A stretch of DNA of 64,000 nt from Draconibacterium mangrovi (GTDB taxonomy: Bacteria; Bacteroidota; Bacteroidia; Bacteroidales; Prolixibacteraceae): positions 186,001-250,000 of the forward strand of contig NZ_JAAAGB010000007.1 of NCBI RefSeq assembly GCF_010586825.1, written 5' to 3'. The position numbers and the translations under genes are program-made. Numbering within the stretch: the stretch's first letter is position 1; each line of letters opens with the position of its first letter. This document shows, in pieces, positions 2 to 32,586 of the stretch. The notes below the pieces were generated by a model. The model saw nothing but the letters and a program-made list of their open reading frames with translations. It did no database searches and was not told the origin of the DNA.

Positions 2-3000
2 GATTATATCACTGTTAACTCATTGGTGCCGGTCGCTGAATTCTCCGCAAATAAAACAACGATTAACCAGGGAGATGCTGTTAGCTTCTCGGACCAGACT
101 ACCAATAATCCTACATCATGGTTATGGGATTTTGGAGATGGAAATACCAGCTCTGTTCAGAGCCCTGCTCATACTTACTCATCTGCTGGTGTTTATACTG
201 TGCAATTGATAGCCACCAATAGTGTTGGAGTTGACACAATTACTAAAACTGATTTTATAACCGTTAACTCATTGGTGCCGGTCGCTGAATTCTCAGCAAA
301 CAAAACAACGATTAACCAGGGAGATGCTGTTAGCTTCTCGGACCAGACTACAAACAATCCAACATCATGGTTATGGGATTTTGGGGATGGAAATACCAGC
401 TCTGTTCAGAGCCCTGCTCATACTTACTCAACAGCTGGAGTTTATACAGTTAAACTTATAGCTACCAGCACCATTGGAGCTGATACAATCACTAAAACTG
501 ATTTTATTACCATTAACTCATTGGTGCCGGTTGCTGAATTCTCAGCAAACAAAACAACGATCAACCAGGGAGATGCTGTTAGCTTCTCGGACCAGACTAC
601 AAACAATCCAACATCCTGGGAATGGGATTTTGGGGATGGAAATACCAGCTCTGTTAAGAGCCCTGCTCATACTTACTCAACAGCTGGAGTTTATGCAGTT
701 AAACTTATAGCTACCAGCACCATTGGAGCTGATACAATCACTAAAACTGATTTTATTACCGTTAACTCATTGGCGCCGGTTGCTGAATTCTCTGCAAATA
801 AAACAACGATCAACCAGGGAGATGCTGTTAGCTTCTCGGACCAGTCGGCAAACAATCCAACATCCTGGGAATGGGATTTTGGAGATGGAAATACCAGCAC
901 TGTTCAAAATCCTACTCATAATTACTTAACAACTGGCACATTTACCGTTAAACTTATCGTAAACAATAGCTTTGGTTCTGACACGACAATAAAAGAAGCA
1001 TTAATTAAAGTCAATTCCGCCGTTCCTTCTGCCGCATTCTCTGCAAATACTGCAATTATTGATCAAGGAAATGAAATCATCTTTTCGGATCAGACGGCCA
1101 ATTTTCCAACATCATGGCTGTGGGACTTTGGGGATGGAAATACCAGTACGGTTCAGAATCCTACTCATATTTACACTTCAGCAGGTTTATATACGGTCAA
1201 ACTTATTGTCGTCAATAGTTTTGGAACGGATACAATTACCAAAACGGATTTTATTACCGTTAACTCATTGGTGCCGGTTGCTGAGTTCTCCGCAAATAAA
1301 ACAACGATAAATCAGGGGGATGCTGTTAGCTTCTCAGATCAGTCTGCAAACAATCCAACCTCATGGAATTGGGATTTTGGGGATGGCAATACCAGTAATG
1401 TTCAGAACCCTACTCATACTTATCCAACAGCAGGAGTATACACAATCAAACTTATTGTTGGCAACAATTTTGGAGCAGATACAATTACTAAAACTGATTT
1501 TATTGCGGTATATTCCTCAAATGTCCCAATAGCGTCGTTCTCTGCAAATAAGACCAACGAAATTCAGGGAAATGAAATCATCTTTTCGGATCAGTCTACC
1601 AATTCGCCAACATCATGGCTTTGGGATTTTGGAGATGGAAATACCAGTACGGTTCAGAATCCAACTAATACATACTTATCCGCTGGCACCTATCCGGTCA
1701 AATTAACGGTCTCTAATAGTTTTGGGTCCGATTCTATTATAAATGAAAACTTTATTATTATATCAAGTCCTACACCTCCAGTGGTAGCGTTTTCTTCAAA
1801 TACGACTACGATAGACCAAGGACATGACATTATTTTTTCGGATCAGTCAACCAATTCACCAACATCATGGTTATGGGATTTTGGAGATGGAAATACAAGT
1901 ACGGTTCAGAACCCTACTCATACTTACTTAACGGCCGGTACGTTTACCGTTACGTTGACGGCAACAAATAGCTTTGGCTCTGACACAGTTACAAAACAAA
2001 ACCTTATCACAGTTAATTCTATTGTCCCTGTCGCTGCATTTGCGGCAAATACGACAGTTATTGACCAGGGAAATCAAATCGTCTTTTCAGATCAGTCTAC
2101 CAATTCACCAACATCATGGTTATGGGATTTTGGAGATGGAAATACAAGCACGGTTCAGAACCCAACTCATACATACTTAACGGCCGGTACGTTTATCGTT
2201 ACGTTGACGGCAACAAATAGCTTTGGCTCTGACACAGTTACAAAACAAAACCTTATCACAGTTAATTCTATTGTCCCTGTCGCTGCATTTGCGGCAAATA
2301 CGACAGTTATTGACCAGGGAAATCAAATCGTCTTTTCAGATCAGTCTACCAATTCACCAACATCATGGTTATGGGATTTTGGAGATGGAAATACCAGCAC
2401 GGTTCAGAATCCAACTCATACATACTTAACGGCCGGTACGTTTATCGTTACGTTGACGGCAACAAATAGCTTTGGCTCTGACACAGTTACAAAACAAAAC
2501 CTTATCACAGTTAATTCTATTGTCCCTGTCGCTGCATTTGCGGCAAATACGACAGTTATTGACCAGGGAAATCAAATCGTCTTTTCAGATCAGTCTACCA
2601 ATTCACCAACATCTTGGTTATGGGATTTTGGAGATGGAAATACCAGCACGGTTCAGAATCCTACTCATACTTACTTAACGGCAGGTACGTTTACCGTTAC
2701 GTTGACGGCAACAAATAGCTTTGGCTCTGACACAGTTACAAAACAAAACCTTATCACAGTTAATTCTATTGTCCCTGTCGCTGCATTTGCGGCAAATACG
2801 ACAGTTATTGACCAGGGAAATCAAATCGTCTTTTCGGATCAGTCAACCAATTCACCAACATCATGGTTATGGGATTTTGGAGATGGAAATACAAGTACGG
2901 TTCAGAACCCTACTCATACTTACTTAACGGCCGGTACGTTTACCGTTACGTTAAAGGTGACCAATAGCTTTGGATTTGATACAATTATAAAACAAAACCT

Positions 3001-5089
3001 TATCACAGTTAATTCTATTGTCCCTGTCGCTGCATTTGCGGCAAATAAGACAGTTATTGACCAGGGAAATCAAATCGTCTTTTCAGATCAGTCTACCAAT
3101 TCACCAACATCATGGGAATGGGATTTTGGAGACGGAAATACCAGCACGGTTCAGAATCCTACTCATACTTACTTAACGGCCGGTACGTTTACCGTTACGT
3201 TAAAGGTGACCAATAGCTTTGGATTTGATACAATTATAAAACAAAACCTTATCACAGTTAATTCTATTGTCCCTGTCGCTGCATTTGCGGCAAATAAGAC
3301 AGTTATTGACCAGGGAAATCAAATCGTCTTTTCAGATCAGTCTACCAATTCACCAACATCATGGGAATGGGATTTTGGGGATGGAAATACAAGTACGGTT
3401 CAGAATCCAACCCATACATACTTAACTGCGGGTACATTTACCGTTACGTTAAAGGTGACCAATAGCTTTGGATTTGATACAATTATAAAACAAAACCTGA
3501 TTACGGTTAATTCCGCTGTCCCTGTTGCTGCCTTCTCGACAAATACAACAATTATTGACCAGGGAGGTGAAATCATTTTCTCAGATCAGTCGACCAATTC
3601 TCCAACTTCATGGTTATGGAATTTTGGAGATGAAACTTCCAGTACTGCACAGAATCCTACTCATACTTACTTAACGGCCGGTACGTTTACCGTTACGTTA
3701 AAGGTGACCAATAGCTTTGGCTCTGACACAATGATAAAACAAAACCTGATAACAGTTAATTCTGCTGTTCCTGTTGCAGCATTCTCAGCAAATAAAACAA
3801 TTATTGACCAGGGAAATCCAATCGTCTTTTCAGATCAGTCGACCAATTCTCCAACATCATGGTTATGGGATTTTGGAGATGGAAATACCAGCACGGTTCA
3901 GAATCCAACTCATACATACTTAACTTCGGGTACATTTACCGTTACGTTAAAGGTGACCAATAGCTTTGGATTTGATACAATTATAAAACAAAACCTGATT
4001 ACAGTTAATTCCGCTGTCCCTGTTGCTGCCTTCTCGACAAATACAACAATTATTGACCAGGGAGGTGAAATCATTTTCTCGGATCAGTCGACCAATTCAC
4101 CAACATCATGGGAATGGGATTTTGGAGATGGAACTTCCAGTACTGCACAGAATCCTACTCATACTTACTTAACGGCCGGTACGTTTACCGTTACACTAAC
4201 GGTCACTAATGTTTTTGGCTCTGACACAATGATTAAACAAAACCTGATTACAGTTAATTCTGCTGTTCCTGTTGCTGCATTCTCTGCAAATAATACAGTT
4301 ATTGACCAGGGAAATCAAGTCATTTTCTTGGATCAGTCTACTAACTCTCCAACATCATGGCTATGGGATTTTGGGGATGGAAATACAAGTACGGTTCAGA
4401 ATCCTACTCATACTTACTTAACGGCCGGGACATTTACCCTTAAGTTGACGGTAACGAATAACTTTGGTTCTGACACAATGATCAAAAATAACTTCATTAC
4501 AGTAAACTCATTAGCTCCTATCGCGCAGTTTTCGGTAGATGAGAGGACAATTATTCAGGGTAATACAGTCACCTTTTTGGATCAGTCCACCAATTCGCCC
4601 ACATCATGGGAATGGGATTTTGGTGATGGTAATACCAGTGCGGTTCAGAATCCTACTCACTCCTATATTGCGGAGGGTTTATATACTGTCAAATTAATCG
4701 CAAGCAATAGTTTTGGACCAGGCACGATTGTTAAGGCTGATTACATTGAGGTTTTACCAATTCCAGACCCGGTACTTTCAGTGTCTCCAATATTCCATGA
4801 TTTTGATACTATATCAACACAAAAATATATAAGTATCAATAATATTGGAGGGAATGTTTTAACATGGTCATTTGCCGAAAATTTAAGTTGGTTAACTGTA
4901 GACCTAGCATCAGGGGAAACTACAACCGAGACCGATAAGGTTGGAATCGTTGTAGATCGCACCAATTTGTCGGCCGGGGATTATTCAGGAATAATTACAA
5001 TAACCAGTAATGGAGGCACCCAGGAAGTTAATATTATTATGAATGTACGAGCTAAGGAAGAACCGAAGCCCCCTGGCTGGACAAATTAA
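2..5089 (+). CDS. Giant PKD-repeat surface protein, 5' end missing
   Basis: The frame is open from the first bases of the window, so the gene starts upstream; the TTG at 23 is internal. The visible part is about 1,695 residues. It has 19 consecutive PKD domains of about 83 residues, each with the signature SWxWDFGDGNTS and a NPTHTY segment. A roughly 110-residue C-terminal domain follows, resembling BACON/abnormal-spindle-like beta domains (LSVSPIFHDFD, then SWLTVDLASGET). PKD domains are Ig-like folds of secreted and cell-surface proteins that act as spacers or bind polysaccharide and protein. The C terminus ends EEPKPPGWTN, and I see no type IX sorting domain, so export may use the Sec or SusD-like route or an N-terminal signal outside the window. 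Repeats 9-14 are nearly identical even in DNA, which suggests recent expansion. The role is probably adhesin or stalk (inference). Confidence 0.9.
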   Translation, partial: DYITVNSLVPVAEFSANKTTINQGDAVSFSDQTTNNPTSWLWDFGDGNTSSVQSPAHTYSSAGVYTVQLIATNSVGVDTITKTDFITVNSLVPVAEFSANKTTINQGDAVSFSDQTTNNPTSWLWDFGDGNTSSVQSPAHTYSTAGVYTVKLIATSTIGADTITKTDFITINSLVPVAEFSANKTTINQGDAVSFSDQTTNNPTSWEWDFGDGNTSSVKSPAHTYSTAGVYAVKLIATSTIGADTITKTDFITVNSLAPVAEFSANKTTINQGDAVSFSDQSANNPTSWEWDFGDGNTSTVQNPTHNYLTTGTFTVKLIVNNSFGSDTTIKEALIKVNSAVPSAAFSANTAIIDQGNEIIFSDQTANFPTSWLWDFGDGNTSTVQNPTHIYTSAGLYTVKLIVVNSFGTDTITKTDFITVNSLVPVAEFSANKTTINQGDAVSFSDQSANNPTSWNWDFGDGNTSNVQNPTHTYPTAGVYTIKLIVGNNFGADTITKTDFIAVYSSNVPIASFSANKTNEIQGNEIIFSDQSTNSPTSWLWDFGDGNTSTVQNPTNTYLSAGTYPVKLTVSNSFGSDSIINENFIIISSPTPPVVAFSSNTTTIDQGHDIIFSDQSTNSPTSWLWDFGDGNTSTVQNPTHTYLTAGTFTVTLTATNSFGSDTVTKQNLITVNSIVPVAAFAANTTVIDQGNQIVFSDQSTNSPTSWLWDFGDGNTSTVQNPTHTYLTAGTFIVTLTATNSFGSDTVTKQNLITVNSIVPVAAFAANTTVIDQGNQIVFSDQSTNSPTSWLWDFGDGNTSTVQNPTHTYLTAGTFIVTLTATNSFGSDTVTKQNLITVNSIVPVAAFAANTTVIDQGNQIVFSDQSTNSPTSWLWDFGDGNTSTVQNPTHTYLTAGTFTVTLTATNSFGSDTVTKQNLITVNSIVPVAAFAANTTVIDQGNQIVFSDQSTNSPTSWLWDFGDGNTSTVQNPTHTYLTAGTFTVTLKVTNSFGFDTIIKQNLITVNSIVPVAAFAANKTVIDQGNQIVFSDQSTNSPTSWEWDFGDGNTSTVQNPTHTYLTAGTFTVTLKVTNSFGFDTIIKQNLITVNSIVPVAAFAANKTVIDQGNQIVFSDQSTNSPTSWEWDFGDGNTSTVQNPTHTYLTAGTFTVTLKVTNSFGFDTIIKQNLITVNSAVPVAAFSTNTTIIDQGGEIIFSDQSTNSPTSWLWNFGDETSSTAQNPTHTYLTAGTFTVTLKVTNSFGSDTMIKQNLITVNSAVPVAAFSANKTIIDQGNPIVFSDQSTNSPTSWLWDFGDGNTSTVQNPTHTYLTSGTFTVTLKVTNSFGFDTIIKQNLITVNSAVPVAAFSTNTTIIDQGGEIIFSDQSTNSPTSWEWDFGDGTSSTAQNPTHTYLTAGTFTVTLTVTNVFGSDTMIKQNLITVNSAVPVAAFSANNTVIDQGNQVIFLDQSTNSPTSWLWDFGDGNTSTVQNPTHTYLTAGTFTLKLTVTNNFGSDTMIKNNFITVNSLAPIAQFSVDERTIIQGNTVTFLDQSTNSPTSWEWDFGDGNTSAVQNPTHSYIAEGLYTVKLIASNSFGPGTIVKADYIEVLPIPDPVLSVSPIFHDFDTISTQKYISINNIGGNVLTWSFAENLSWLTVDLASGETTTETDKVGIVVDRTNLSAGDYSGIITITSNGGTQEVNIIMNVRAKEEPKPPGWTN
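2024..3517 (+). repeat. Six near-identical 249-bp tandem PKD-coding units
   Basis: Units begin at 2024, 2273, 2522, 2771, 3020 and 3269, exactly 249 bp (83 codons) apart, and differ by only a few bases. Repeats 1-8 and 15-19 of the same gene are more diverged. The pattern fits recent unequal recombination or gene conversion within the array. Copy number may vary between strains and could be wrong in a short-read assembly. Confidence 0.9.
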
Positions 5090-5994: not shown

Positions 5995-8900
5995 TTATTT
6001 GTTTCGGTAAATAATTTTTCCAATCCTGGTATCGCCATCGATATCCAGTCTGTAGAGATAGACTCCTGAAATTTCAGAATTAGGTCTGAACTCTACGCGT
6101 TGCAATTCACCTGCTTCAACCGGTTGATCCAGTATTCTGGCAACTCGTTGTCCAAGCATGTTGTGAATTTCAAGAACAGCATGACCACTAACTGCAGAAA
6201 CAAATTCAAAGTTCACCACTTCATCAAATGGATTCGGGAACACTTTGAGTTCACTATCCTGAAGAATTGGATTTACATCTAATTGTATATCTGCTGATTT
6301 TTTCACTTTTTGGTCTTCAACTGATCCATTTGCTCGTTTAGAACCTTTAAAAGGAGGCAGATCTTCTGGATCCATTTCTTCCCACCATGGATAATCATCT
6401 GGACTTACGATGCTATCACTTCCACTAAGAACAAATACTCCGTCATTATTCACGTCAACTTCACCATAACATACACAGGTAAGTTCACATGCCACACCAT
6501 GGGCAATGATCCAGAATTCGTCAACAACATTTGTTATAATAACATTCGCGTCTGTATAGTGGCCTTCGCCTTCAACAACAACGGTATACTGACCTGGAGC
6601 AACTGTTTGTTTCTGTTTTTTACCATTACCCATTACAGGATATTTTTCGTAACCAACATAAACATGTACTTCTTCCAGATAATTTCCAGGATCCATTATA
6701 TAATCAACATATACACTGTCGTTTTGCCATCTGACTTCAACCTTACCAACAGGTGTTCTATCTGTTGTATCACAATGGGCAGCACCGGCATATAAATCAA
6801 GCACATATGTGGTATCACGCTTTGTGATTGGATTCGTCCAGCCCCATCTATTGAATATACCATCACTACAGAAGTCGACTACTTCATCATCGTTTGGTAT
6901 TACTCCAAATACAGTTTCGCAGTTACCAACTTGTTCGGTCCACTTTTTAACATATACTGTTGTATCTGTTGGATTTCCACAGTCGTCTTCAATATGGAAA
7001 GTATAACTGTATATTGCCGGACACTCGCCTTCTACATATATTGCTGTTGCTGATACACTATCAGAACCGTCACAATTATCTGTCCAGTAAGCCCAAATCA
7101 TATCTGCCGGCTCCATATTACAGATTGAATCCATGAAAGGTATTGAATCTATTTCTGGTGCTGTCAGATCTACTTTCCAGTCTACACGTACTTTCGCTGA
7201 ATCGATGTTGCCACAAAGATCCTCTGCGTAGAACGTACGTACTGCCCACATTGCACAAGGCTCTCCGCCTGTCTCATCTCTCGATGTTATGGTGATGTCT
7301 CCAGGATCATCACAGTTGTCTGTAGCACTCGCACTTCCAAGAGCTGTTTCAATCTCTGCATCAGTTGGATTGCAGCCCAGATCATCATCACTGTTGGCTG
7401 TAATTTCTGGTGCTGTCAGATCTACTTTCCAGTCTACACGTACTTTCGCTGAATCGATGTTGCCACAAAGATCCTCTGCGTAGAACGTACGTACTGCCCA
7501 CATTGCACAAGGCTCTCCGCCTGTCTCATCTCTCGATGTTATGGTGATGTCTCCAGGATCATCACAGTTGTCTGTAGCACTCGCACTTCCAAGAGCTGTT
7601 TCAATCTCTGCATCAGTTGGATTGCAGCCCAGATCATCATCACTGTTGGCTGTAATTTCTGGTGCTGTCAGATCTACTTTCATCGTCAATGTCGTAGTTT
7701 TTGTATCGGTATTACCACAGTCATCTGTGTATGTAAAAGTATATAGCCTACTCTGGACACAACCTTGAGGAGCTTGCAACACTCCTTCATCAGAATCTAC
7801 TGTTGTATTTGTTGATCCATCGTTTCCACAATCCACCAAAACATCTGCAGTTAAAGAAGTTGGCCAGGTTCCATTACAACCAAGGTCATATCCGGCAGGA
7901 GGTGTAATCGTTACCGTACATTCTTCTGCCTGGAAAATGGTATCCCTACATTCACTAGGGTCTTCAAGCCCAACATTTTGTTCCTCATTCCAGGTATAAA
8001 TGGTATATGGTCCGGCTGGCAATCCCCCAACACTGTAATTACCGCTTCCATCAGTTGCTCCTTCGTATACAGGAGTACCTGGATCAGAGTCTTCAAAAAC
8101 ATAAATCCAGTAAGGAGCTGTACCTTCTCCTCCAACAGCAATATCCAGGCTACCGGTAGAGTCTCCAAAACATTCAACATCAGTAGCAATAACCTCACAT
8201 GTTGGTGCTGTATAGGCGATTACAGCAGTTGCAGATAGCTGAACTTCTTTACTACCGCATCCTGACAACATTTCACAATCTGCAATAAACATATGGTATG
8301 GACTACCATTAATGTCTGCAGCTGAGCTACCCGGTCCCCACAAGTCTTCACAGGCAATATGGCCACCCCAGGCTAAAAGCACAATAGTCTCTCCTGGATT
8401 CGGAGTAAAATCTACCCAGTAATAATCTGATGAAGTATTAGCAGAAGGATCTCCTCCAACAAACTGCATTGCGGTTACTGTACCATTGTAAATCTTCATT
8501 AGCCCATAACCATCTCCTACCACATCATTGAAACCATCAATTGGACCGCTTAATCCTATTGAAGTGGGAATTGAATTATTTGGAGGGGGAATTGGAAATG
8601 ATCCAAAATCATTAAATGGATCCAATCCTGACAACTCCAGATCTGTATCAACCAGAACATCGCCGATAACATTTTCAGGAGTATGACCAAAAGTAGCAGA
8701 ATGTAAATCCGGCCGTTCAAACGAAGTCATAAAATCAATAGCGTGTTTGAAATCCTTTGTGATATCAAACCCTATTTTGACACGATAGGTTACACCAGAA
8801 GTCAATCCACTAACCTGTAAACGATAAGGAATAGTCATTCCACAAGCATAGTGTGCCTTAGCTGCATTAACATTACCCGTTACCCAGCCGGTATTTGTGG

Positions 8901-30489: not shown

Positions 30490-30517
30490 AAAAAACCGCG
30501 ATTTCTCGCGGTTCCTT
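30488..30517. terminator. Bidirectional terminator
   Basis: AACCGCGA (30494-30501) and TCGCGGTT (30506-30513) are perfect arms with a TTTC loop. A-rich sequence on the left gives a long T-run on the minus strand, and CCTTT follows on the plus strand. It probably serves both the 60-residue gene and the convergent gene ending at 30551. Confidence 0.8.
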
Positions 30518-30550
30518 TAAAATTGCTTTCTATGAAATAAAATTTGCTGT

Positions 30551-31021
30551 TTAATTCAAAAGATGTGTGTAACCATCGTTAATCAGATCGGGCAAATAAC
30601 TTGCAATTAAACCTAAGGCAGTTTCATCGTCAACTTTATTAGGAGTGATTATACGTTGGCGTTCCATTTCTTCCTGACTAATAACGGCTCTTGAGATTCT
30701 TTTTGGCACATCGCTCCAGGCTTTCCGGGTTTCTTTAGCACCAAATCCTTCGCTGGTTGCAGCGTAGCTTACCTGGAAATGTTTTGAATGTACAACGTAC
30801 TCAACACCTTCAAGCGTGTTGCGTTTTACAACTGTAACAGGCTCTTCTTCTGAGCTGTAACTTACCGTCCAAAGTGCTTTCACCGATTTGCCCATGTAAA
30901 GATTATCGACTTCTTCAATTTCGAACGATTTAAACTGAGTTCGTACGCCAGTTGCTGATGCACTAACTGAAACGAACAAGAATGCTAAAACCAATACGGA
31001 TAATAAATTTACTTTTTTCAT
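30551..31021 (-). CDS. Secreted protein of unknown function, paralogue A
   Basis: A 156-residue protein with a signal peptide (LLSVLVLAFLFVSVSASATG). The mature part begins RTQFKSFEIEEVDNLYMGK and includes the block PVTVVKRNTLEGVEYVV, GFGAK, and the C-terminal TPNKVDDETALGLIASYLPD followed by NDGYTHLLN. The protein at 31741 is equally long and shares all these blocks, so they are tandem paralogues (more than half identical by eye). I know no family with this signature. The start is set at the ATG at 31021 because the signal peptide begins there, although the frame is open to 31105. A terminator lies 40 bases after the stop. Envelope or extracellular location is likely; function is unknown. 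Confidence 0.8.
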   Translation of the reverse strand: MKKVNLLSVLVLAFLFVSVSASATGVRTQFKSFEIEEVDNLYMGKSVKALWTVSYSSEEEPVTVVKRNTLEGVEYVVHSKHFQVSYAATSEGFGAKETRKAWSDVPKRISRAVISQEEMERQRIITPNKVDDETALGLIASYLPDLINDGYTHLLN

Positions 31022-31322
31022 GACTCTAAATTTTTGTTTTCTGACTGTAATTGTTTTCGTAATTATTTGTATTGGAGAGACGCACGAATTACATCTTGGT
31101 GACATCCAAAAGCCTTGCTGTAAAACAGATTCGGTTGGCAGAAAAAGATTGCTTTTTACATTTTGACATTTATTACCCCTTTTTGTTTTTAATTTGAAAT
31201 AATAAGGCGCTGCTGTATTTTAATTTAAAACCACTTCCGGGTAAAAGCAATTTCCCCATTCTATTGGCTAAAATATTTCTATCGACCAACGACAGATTTT
31301 ATCGACAAAAATTTTGTGCCTT

Positions 31323-31669
31323 CGCAGGCTCGCGGTGGCTAAAATGCAGCTTCATACGCTTTTCGCTGACATGCGACAGTAAGAACTCAAGCTCCGGCAA
31401 GGATTCGCGGTGCCGCGAAAGCCATAAAAACAGTTGGAAATAGCCGCCATCGTTTAATGAAAGGCGAAAATAACTTCCAGACTTCACGCCATCAGGCGAT
31501 GAAAGGAAGAAATGGATTACGGACAATCCTCCATCGGGCGATGAAATACTGAAACCAGCATAAAACAGACTTTCATCAGGTGATGCCCGGTATAGTAGCC
31601 TCCCCGACATGTTTTCATCTTGTGATGAAAGGCGCAAATAAGTTTGTGGTAAGCTTTCATCAATCGATG
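31323..31669. repeat. 42-bp-phased array of short palindromes
   Basis: CATCnnnnGATG cores lie at 31490, 31532, 31574, 31616 and 31658, and CATCGTTTAATG at 31448, so six centres are exactly 42 bp apart. To the left the phase continues to within a base or two, but the palindrome sequence changes: TTCGCGGTGCCGCGAA at 31405, TCGCTGACATGCGA at 31363 and a weak one at 31323. The bases between cores are mostly unrelated. On the minus strand the array is open for 128 codons with a 14-residue period (LSSPDGV, ISSPDGG, RASPDES). It lies between paralogues A and B. Confidence 0.7.
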
Positions 31670-31674
31670 GCAAC

Positions 31675-31705
31675 AAAAAAGCCATCCGTCATTTGACGGA
31701 TGGCT
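31675..31705 (-). terminator. Terminator of paralogue B
   Basis: GCCATCCGTC (31681-31690) and GACGGATGGC (31695-31704) are perfect 10-bp arms with an ATTT loop. On the minus strand the stem is followed by TTTTTTG. It lies 36 bases past the stop of the gene at 31741. Confidence 0.85.
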
Positions 31706-31740
31706 TCGAATTAAAATTACTTCTATTCTAATTATTGCGA

Positions 31741-32211
31741 TTAATTGAGTAAGTGCGTATATCCATCATTTAATAAATCAGGCAGGTAGCTTGCAATCAA
31801 TCCTAAAGCCATTTTATCATCCACTTTGTTAGGCGAAATAATCTCCTGATTTTTCAATTCGTTTTGATTAATAACAGCATGGTTAATTTTGTTATCTACG
31901 TTACACCATGATTTACGAACTTGTTTTGCTCCAAAACCTGCTGCAGAAGCTACATAACGAACAGAAAAGAACTCCGAGCTCACCACATATTCAGTTCCCT
32001 CGATAGTGTTTCTTTTAACTACTGTAACCGGTTTTTCCGAGTTGTCGTAGCTCAAGGTCCAAATTGCATCAACCTTTTTGCCCATATACAAATCATCAAC
32101 CAGGGTAAATTCAAATTCATTAAATTCGGTACGTATTCCGGTGGCATTGGCTACAGAAGTGGCCATTGCAAAAAATGTAATAATTGCGATTATAAAATTT
32201 ACTTTTCTCAT
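31741..32211 (-). CDS. Secreted protein of unknown function, paralogue B
   Basis: A 156-residue exported protein (signal peptide FIIAIITFFAMATSVANATG) closely related to the one at 30551. The shared blocks are DLYMGK, KPVTVVKRNTIEGTEYVV, GFGAKQVRKSW, SPNKVDDKMALGLIASYLPD and a terminal NDGYTHLLN. The strictly kept C terminus suggests a functional or interaction site. Each copy has its own terminator, so they are separately transcribed despite being tandem. No family recognised. The 530 bases between the two stops and starts hold the 42-bp array. Confidence 0.8.
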   Translation of the reverse strand: MRKVNFIIAIITFFAMATSVANATGIRTEFNEFEFTLVDDLYMGKKVDAIWTLSYDNSEKPVTVVKRNTIEGTEYVVSSEFFSVRYVASAAGFGAKQVRKSWCNVDNKINHAVINQNELKNQEIISPNKVDDKMALGLIASYLPDLLNDGYTHLLN

Positions 32212-32586
32212 GACATTAAAATTTAAGGTTCAACTCTAAACTCTGTTATTGTTTAATTTTCGTGCAAATGACGTATAAATTTTAATGCTGCAACAAGAAA
32301 AATCAATGCTCTAAAACACATTTCAAACACGAGTAAAACATTGAAAATAAAAGACTTTAAGCGCGAAACATTTTTCACTTACACTCTGTTCTTTAAAATT
32401 TGAAAAACGGAAGAAAAATTGACGGGAAACCATATTTTTGCTTACACTTTTAAAACTTGAAAAAGTTTATCTTTACGAATTAAAAGCGCATATTTTATAA
32501 GAAAATCCCGCGAAACAACCGCCAAACGGCAGAAATGATAAAATCCGCCAGCTGGCAAACAGTTAATAACAAACAATTAATGGCCT
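32212..32586. other. Divergent promoter region with an imperfect direct repeat
   Basis: An AT-rich gap between paralogue B (minus) and the nitroreductase (plus). It holds two imperfect copies, at 32364-32406 and 32423-32464, of a segment containing GAAAC, ATTTTT, CTTACACT, TTTAAAA and TTGAAAAA in that order. TATCTTTA near 32468 is one base from the TAnnTTTG box and could serve the nitroreductase. Confidence 0.45.

Follow-up and report, generated by a model that had tools for sequence, protein, structure and literature searches.

A phased array of palindromes in Draconibacterium mangrovi, probably the body of a dispersed, modular intergenic DNA element

Introduction

The intergenic repeats known to us are families whose members have a common sequence. 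BOX of Streptococcus pneumoniae is a modular repeat in which conserved ends enclose a variable number of hairpin-forming middle units of about 45 bp, and these middle units have one sequence throughout the genome. MITEs are short, dispersed, non-coding sequences characterized by terminal inverted repeats, a target duplication, and a parent transposase. REP sequences and BIMEs are intergenic, palindromic, and regularly clustered with alternating dyads, BIME-2 units being tandem, and both BIME-2 and the atypical BIMEs bind gyrase, as stated in the accessible part of one account (PMC2817692). The available portion of another describes most REPs as carrying a GTAG or CGTC tag and falling into sequence families (PMC3733652). 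STAR-like elements, in the section of the source at hand, are short, regularly spaced repeats with a fixed signature sequence that mimic a repeat-spacer pattern (PMC5294841).

Here, we describe an array of palindromes with a 42-bp period in a stretch of 64,000 nucleotides from Draconibacterium mangrovi (contig NZ_JAAAGB010000007.1), which as a whole is referred to as the window, together with related arrays in this and other genomes. The arrays resemble BOX, compared by its general description, in having conserved ends round a variable number of hairpin-capable units; unlike BOX, their middle units have no one genome-wide sequence. They resemble MITEs in being short, non-coding, and dispersed, with conserved ends at unrelated loci (in the relative G023, and at the right end of the GTA class, see below), a likeness that lies in the conserved termini. 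Like REP/BIME, as far as the portions of the sources cited above go, they are intergenic palindromes in many copies (37 places against 2 in a control in the D. mangrovi genome, and 72 against 2 in G023) with regular spacing and dyads that alternate every 21 bp within the 42-bp unit; unlike REP/BIME as given there, they keep one period, 42 bp, with stem sequences that differ from one array to another. Neither GTAG nor CGTC stands as a tag beside the palindromes, where we found a foot of CTTTC/GAAAG and variable inner triplets, and GTAG occurs in the arrays only within the stem and loop of GTA-class units. Short repeats at a regular distance are shared with STAR-like elements and other CRISPR-like tandem repeats (PMC5294841); unlike the arrays here, STAR is not described as dyad-phased in the part of that source consulted. 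Among the titles and abstract openings that our searches of open-licence full texts returned, none dealt with 42-bp-phased palindrome arrays in Bacteroidota. We found no earlier account of such arrays, which look like a little-described variant among the modular palindromic repeats of intergenic DNA.

Results

Eight palindromic units in 42-bp phase

The window array consists of eight palindromic units of 20 bp in strict 42-bp phase, from 31360 to 31673. A sequence-only reading had placed six cores at exact 42-bp steps from 31448 to 31658, which our analysis bore out. It had also seen up to three weaker units to the left; two of these (31360–31379 and 31402–31421) belong to the best palindrome chain. 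The features of the array, in positions of the window, are as follows:

Starts 31360, 31402, 31444, 31486, 31528, 31570, 31612, and 31654, no strand: the 20-bp units of the best palindrome chain
31448 to 31669, no strand: six CATCnnnnGATG-type cores, starting at 31448, 31490, 31532, 31574, 31616, and 31658
31402 to 31421, no strand: unit GATTCGCGGTGCCGCGAAAG with a different stem, in phase, which includes TTCGCGGTGCCGCGAA and is part of the best chain
31360 to 31379, no strand: the left-most supported unit, TTTTCGCTGACATGCGACAG, also part of the best chain

Five of the six cores are perfect copies of CATCnnnnGATG; the first, at 31448, has the imperfect form CATCGTTTAATG. One stem (CATC/GATG) is common to all six while their loops vary, and the two left-most units have another stem, of CGCG type. 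The earlier statement that the stems differ but keep pairing fails within the six cores, where only the loop changes. It is correct for the two left units, and strongly so when arrays are compared with one another.

Exact CATCnnnnGATG occurs nine times in the window, five of these in the array, against an expectation of 0.72, and none of 100 shuffles reached nine. In a sequence-blind search for eight-unit palindrome chains of period 42, the array was the best of the window (score 41, first centre at 31370). Comparison of periods from 20 to 79 put 42 at the top with this score of 41 and the runner-up at 38. For period 42, the scores of 100 Markov simulations had a mean of 32.5 and a maximum of 36. 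Because its units have decayed, the array was not listed by Tandem Repeats Finder run on the window, and a stricter test (three adjacent units, summed pairs 18/24) missed it as well. Two other repeats of the window are a tandem array at 32–4659 (249-bp unit, 18.6 copies, 84% matches), which perhaps belongs to a repeat-domain surface protein, and a 252-bp unit in 2.1 copies with 100% matches at 7151–7681.

The locus in sister species

The array lies between two paralogues, neither of which gave a family above cut-off in Pfam, NCBIfam, or PADLOC. The features of the locus are as follows:

31741 to 32211, minus strand: 156-aa paralogue upstream of the array, without a family match above cut-off
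30551 to 31021, minus strand: second paralogue, 60% identical to the first, with its start about 340 bp from the array
31679 to 31706, minus strand: terminator-like perfect hairpin with 13-bp arms at the 3' end of the upstream paralogue, adjoining the array
31323 to 31673, no strand: array-bearing piece with approximate ends, not in the orthologous gap of 9 of 12 aligned species

The terminator-like hairpin is found at the same place in sister species. The gap between the paralogues measures 723 bp here and about 400 bp in nine of the 12 aligned species (by subtraction of positions); it is 554 bp in the relative G003 and 596 bp in G029, the latter with a degenerate homologous array. Presence of the array varies, some sister species having it and others being without it. 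Similarity to the collected array loci disclosed no end modules for the window array, and the sole match of this copy among those loci outside the orthologous gap was 28 bp of the genome G027 (E 0.035), which makes it either decayed or a member of another family.

A widespread but patchy family

A search of the D. mangrovi genome (5.9 Mb) for CTTTC-N10-GAAAG-N22-CTTTC-N10-GAAAG with up to three mismatches returned 37 places, against 2 in the reversed control. There are at least 13 separate arrays in this genome, the window copy included, in four stem classes that we distinguish by inner triplet as ATC, GTA, CCG-type, and GGG-type. With at most one mismatch, the pattern was found in 10 of 61 genomes, D. 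mangrovi included, every one of them in the genus. A looser pattern gave 72 places against 2 in the control in G023, a genome of 2.2 Mb placed in the same genus, and 0 to 24 places in each of the other genus members searched. Applied to 120 genomes, the looser pattern left most other genera near control counts; one genome, G508, had 15 against 12 in the control. In a sample of the phylum, 4 of 392 genomes, again including D. mangrovi, had the pattern; one of these matches has a gap of 26 and was taken for chance, and one (G368) has a gap of 21 and thus advances by 41 bp per unit.

Scanning 84,980 species genomes for the exact pattern yielded 89 stretches, 64 of which bear Bacteroidota titles by our count. 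The chance expectation for 20 fixed bases in 257 billion is below one by simple arithmetic; actual genomes depart from randomness, and some of the matches are plainly coding. Outside D. mangrovi, arrays were found in Draconibacterium, Marinifilum, Segatella, Chryseobacterium/Kaistella, and many Bacteroidales MAGs. These MAGs are presumably of termite-gut origin, going by their isolate names. Several of the remaining 25 stretches look coding or look to be of a 21-bp type. CTTTC..GAAAG arrays with a period of 21 bp or nearly so occur in Verrucomicrobiales MAGs (L094, L115, L060, and L046) and Acidobacteria MAGs (L057 and L107), where they are possibly heptad-coding or a half-period relative. The distribution of the arrays is widespread but patchy.

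Geometry of the unit

The 42-bp periodicity of the window array recurs in further genomes: with any gap of 7 to 37 bp allowed, 37 genomes of the genus contained 16 exact places, every one of them with a gap of 22. At 104 loci with duplicates removed, the steps between consecutive TTTC-N10-GAAA sites were 42 bp in 271 cases, 41 bp in 21, 43 bp in 2, and some other distance within 25–65 bp in 3 (280, 21, 2, and 3 elsewhere with duplicate loci kept), counts that are biased towards 42 by the selection of these loci for a 42-bp pair. Two places were represented twice (L055 is L142, and L105 is L143); both duplicates were in the first site-step and wobble counts and were removed in the repeats. A further 27 loci, one of them with a Bacteroidetes title, were chosen as doubtful by reading titles and printouts and dropped in repeat counts; 26 of them are in the set of 90 arrays used for pairing and 25 in the site-step set.

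The unit starts with a 20-bp dyad, in which the outer foot CTTTC...GAAAG is common and the inner stem specific to the array, and continues with a 22-bp spacer. Inner triplets were of 37 types in the 90 loci, all of which were used. The spacer often contains a second, weaker dyad: pairs 5, 7, 8, and 9 from its edge were complementary in 54, 48, 44, and 64 of 90 arrays, against permutation values of 29.9, 26.2, 27.2, and 39.7, and the other spacer pairs were nearer to their permutation values or below them. Since this second dyad lies in mid-spacer, the arrays present one dyad per 21 bp. Two turns of B-DNA correspond to 21 bp. The spacer dyads of L041 and L047 (Tannerella MAGs) and L102 (Chryseobacterium cheonjiense) have TGCAGGGGTGCG or its reverse complement in common across these distant families.

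Pairing between arrays and divergence within them

The inner three pairs of the stem were not fixed by the search. Taking one consensus for each of 90 arrays, 206 of 270 were complementary, while permuting the right arms among the arrays gave 80.8 ± 7.4 pairs and a maximum of 110 in 2000 permutations. Reduction to 68 distinct stem combinations left 147 complementary pairs of 204, against 59.6 ± 6.3 on permutation. G023 by itself had 40 of 48 (16.1 on permutation), a value reached by none of 5000 permutations, and its elements with one common end module carry different stems, namely CGA, CTC, GGC, and TAT.

Substitutions between orthologous arrays were counted in ten array comparisons, nine of them with usable units and with one locus (L142) used twice; units with gaps or more than 14 differences were dropped, which kept 47 of 69 (none in L129/L141 and 2 of 10 in L130/L144). 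Stems had changed at 45 of 752 positions (6.0%), loops at 30 of 188 (16.0%), and spacers at 147 of 1034 (14.2%), with Fisher P values of 1.8e-8 for stem versus spacer and 3e-5 for stem versus loop. The slower change of stems than of spacers, and array-level pairing far above permutation, support the selection on helically phased palindromes that the sequence-only reading had put forward. The outcome for compensatory stem changes, which it had also raised, is divided: symmetry is kept between arrays with different stems, whereas the 45 stem substitutions of orthologous arrays include no compensatory double change. Within two classes, GTA (84 unit orientations) and CCG (68), units paired about as often as expected from column make-up, without covariation; the exceptions were pair 7 of GTA (66 against 57 expected) and, on the low side, pair 1 of CCG (14 against 25) and pair 9 in either class. 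With neither covariation inside a class nor a double change, conservation of the half-site sequence is favoured over pairing as such. On the short scale it is the half-site sequence that is conserved, and on the long scale the symmetry. The dyads may be recognised either as hairpins or as protein half-sites.

A general conservation of arrays above their flanks was considered and rejected, being true for L131/L135 (97.0% against 82–88% in the flanks) and reversed in three other pairs, i.e., L016/L017 (61.7% against 93.1%), L129/L141, and L142/L143.

Element ends, neighbours, and candidate mobilisers

GTA-class arrays at unrelated loci have a right-end module and left-end units in common. In G023, the array-richest relative, arrays sit within dispersed elements with conserved ends, of which two families were distinguished. 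Of 30 array flanks examined there, five make one similarity cluster, and a second, mixed cluster comprises 19, eight of them with one common end sequence by inspection. Higher-order duplications within arrays appear as repeats of 126 and 168 bp. Arrays lie between long open frames, several of them overlapping shorter frames (100–230 codons) taken as spurious. Going by open frames only, the genes on either side of an array may have any of the three arrangements (convergent, tandem, or divergent). Comparison of filled with empty sites for the window array and two GTA arrays revealed no clean boundary or clean target-site duplication.

Two other dispersed sequences were observed beside these elements. 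A CCCCGGCATTAATGCCGGGG palindrome, itself another dispersed repeat, lies near GTA-class arrays at L142:2406 (the same as L012:1742 and L055:905) and L017:1742. The family II elements of G023 (right flanks L206, L207, and L217) end in a TTGCGAG...GAAGCAATCC-like sequence, which we take to resemble a widespread bacterial repeat.

A PF01797 search disclosed four Y1_Tnp genes in the D. mangrovi genome, and the 3.2–3.3 kb round each of them contained no CTTTC-N10-GAAAG and no 42-bp chain. Two of the RAYT-like type (L123 and L124) have the motif YIHQNP, like subclass 2.6 in the portion of PMC6006769 available. Both are flanked by their own palindromes, which are of GCGCGGATTTGTAATCCG type and form a separate REP family; the arrays as RAYT-mobilised REPs of this genome were therefore rejected as a candidate, and our check of the RAYT-like genes of D. 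mangrovi found no mobiliser of the arrays. A viral or plasmid origin was also considered and set aside: viral contigs gave no match in a protein search and one match (L117) to the DNA pattern, a plasmid search with one GTA array gave none, and neither did a phage search with the window array.

Discussion

We consider that the window array probably, with considerable room for doubt, makes up the body of an intergenic DNA element that is non-coding, modular, dispersed, and BIME/BOX-like, with dyads following one another at 21 bp. On this view the window copy has decayed, and no end modules are recognised in it. The arrays look selected and act, if at all, as DNA, RNA and peptide readings being disfavoured. 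Units within an element would be multiplied by tandem duplication, the elements would be copied in trans to new intergenic places, and a candidate DNA-level partner would recognise the dyads as hairpins, cruciforms, or paired half-sites. Such elements are probably near-neutral or selfish, and the arrays are possibly used as the docking site of a chromosome-structuring protein.

The strongest alternative, which we nonetheless regard as rather unlikely, is that the arrays are phased sites for a protein that organises the chromosome, binds as a dimer, and perhaps forms filaments. Each dyad would bind a single dimer, and the dimers would stack at 21-bp steps along the same face of the helix, the different inner triplets being read by paralogous proteins or with loose specificity. 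One dyad in each 21 bp, stems that evolve slower, conserved half-sites with no covariation inside a class, the lack of strand bias, and the occurrence of arrays between convergent, tandem, and divergent gene pairs would all agree with such a protein. It would, however, need many specificities, since G023 alone has at least seven stem classes by our reading; moreover, end modules and presence or absence at a locus resemble a repeat element, and no candidate protein was found.

That the arrays have no function and arise by mutation alone is improbable. Replication slippage would produce further copies of a quasi-palindromic unit, whose two arms would be perfected through template switching at the hairpin, in keeping with fast turnover and with the 126- and 168-bp duplications within arrays. 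Template switching nevertheless predicts double changes, of which none was observed, and mutation alone leaves unexplained the common outer foot and the recurrence of 42 bp in unrelated genera (one of these searches had 42 fixed); nor would it make stems slower than the spacers of the same arrays.

The structured RNA that the sequence-only reading had offered as one branch is disfavoured, and we see little chance that the arrays are back-to-back hairpins of an RNA. Single strands do fold into strong hairpins, and inner pairing is preserved between arrays; a transcribed strand should, however, tolerate G.U more than A.C. On the plus strand of 86 arrays, G.T and A.C mismatches numbered 70 and 75, and after removal of duplicates and doubtful loci (69 arrays) 52 and 56. 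The imbalance per array did not exceed its null in either set (123 against 145 ± 22, and 70 against 108), and arrays were found in every gene orientation, which also counts against an RNA. An Rfam search of positions 30500–32500 of the window and of eight other array loci gave no match to an array above the gathering score, and a weak match to MIR862_2 (E 0.69) overlaps the L130 array. Elsewhere in the D. mangrovi genome, on contig C11, RF01687 (Acido-Lenti-1) matched at L127:4111-4156 (43.2 bits, gathering score 37) and 4249-4294 (30.9 bits), about 1.7 kb from a GTA-class array.

The other alternative raised from the sequence, a repetitive minus-strand peptide whose period is 14 residues, is most improbable. 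The frame concerned is indeed present:

31299 to 31685, minus strand: 128-codon open frame across the array, judged spurious, the orthologous frame in G029 having stops

This frame stayed open in 35 of 5000 spacer shuffles, which is mildly unusual and counts in favour of a peptide, and some frame of at least 120 codons was open in 110 of 5000. Of 79 arrays with loosely set bounds and four or more units, 56 had at least one frame open from end to end and 23 had none, the latter being an upper bound because the array ends were set loosely. Trimming to 50 pure 42-bp runs left 41 with an open frame against 37.3 on column permutation, and 22 of 200 permutations reached 41; there is therefore no excess of open frames. 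Against a peptide also stand the distribution of open frames over all six with none preferred, the existence of 41-bp steps, the stops in the orthologous insert of G029, and the absence of a family match. A CRISPR array without cas genes, which the palindromic repeats at regular spacing and the differing spacers of the window might evoke, can be dismissed almost outright, in agreement with the earlier judgement that this is no normal CRISPR, as the repeat is just 20 bp with a variable loop, repeats vary where near-identical direct repeats and unrelated spacers define a CRISPR, and spacers are similar within and between arrays, those of sister arrays being alike with a dyad of their own.

Returning to the dispersed intergenic element, we tentatively propose, at less than even confidence, that such arrays form a previously undescribed element class of Bacteroidota defined by geometry, with variants possible in other phyla. 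Its members would present a dyad every 21 bp, always towards the same side of the helix, with GAAA as the foot and a stem that changes freely but stays self-complementary; they would be read by shape, whether hairpin, cruciform, or filament of dimers, be copied as modular elements whose ends differ by family, and act in chromosome structure or in their own spread. In practical terms, the arrays yield long open frames, such as the 128 codons here, that can be mistaken for genes. Across several families of the phylum, their sequence changes while the symmetry and the 21/42-bp step persist, and it should therefore be possible to find and test a partner protein or copying enzyme. A partner that structures the chromosome would have its docking sites marked by the arrays; with a copying enzyme as partner, the arrays would be a new kind of short mobile DNA.
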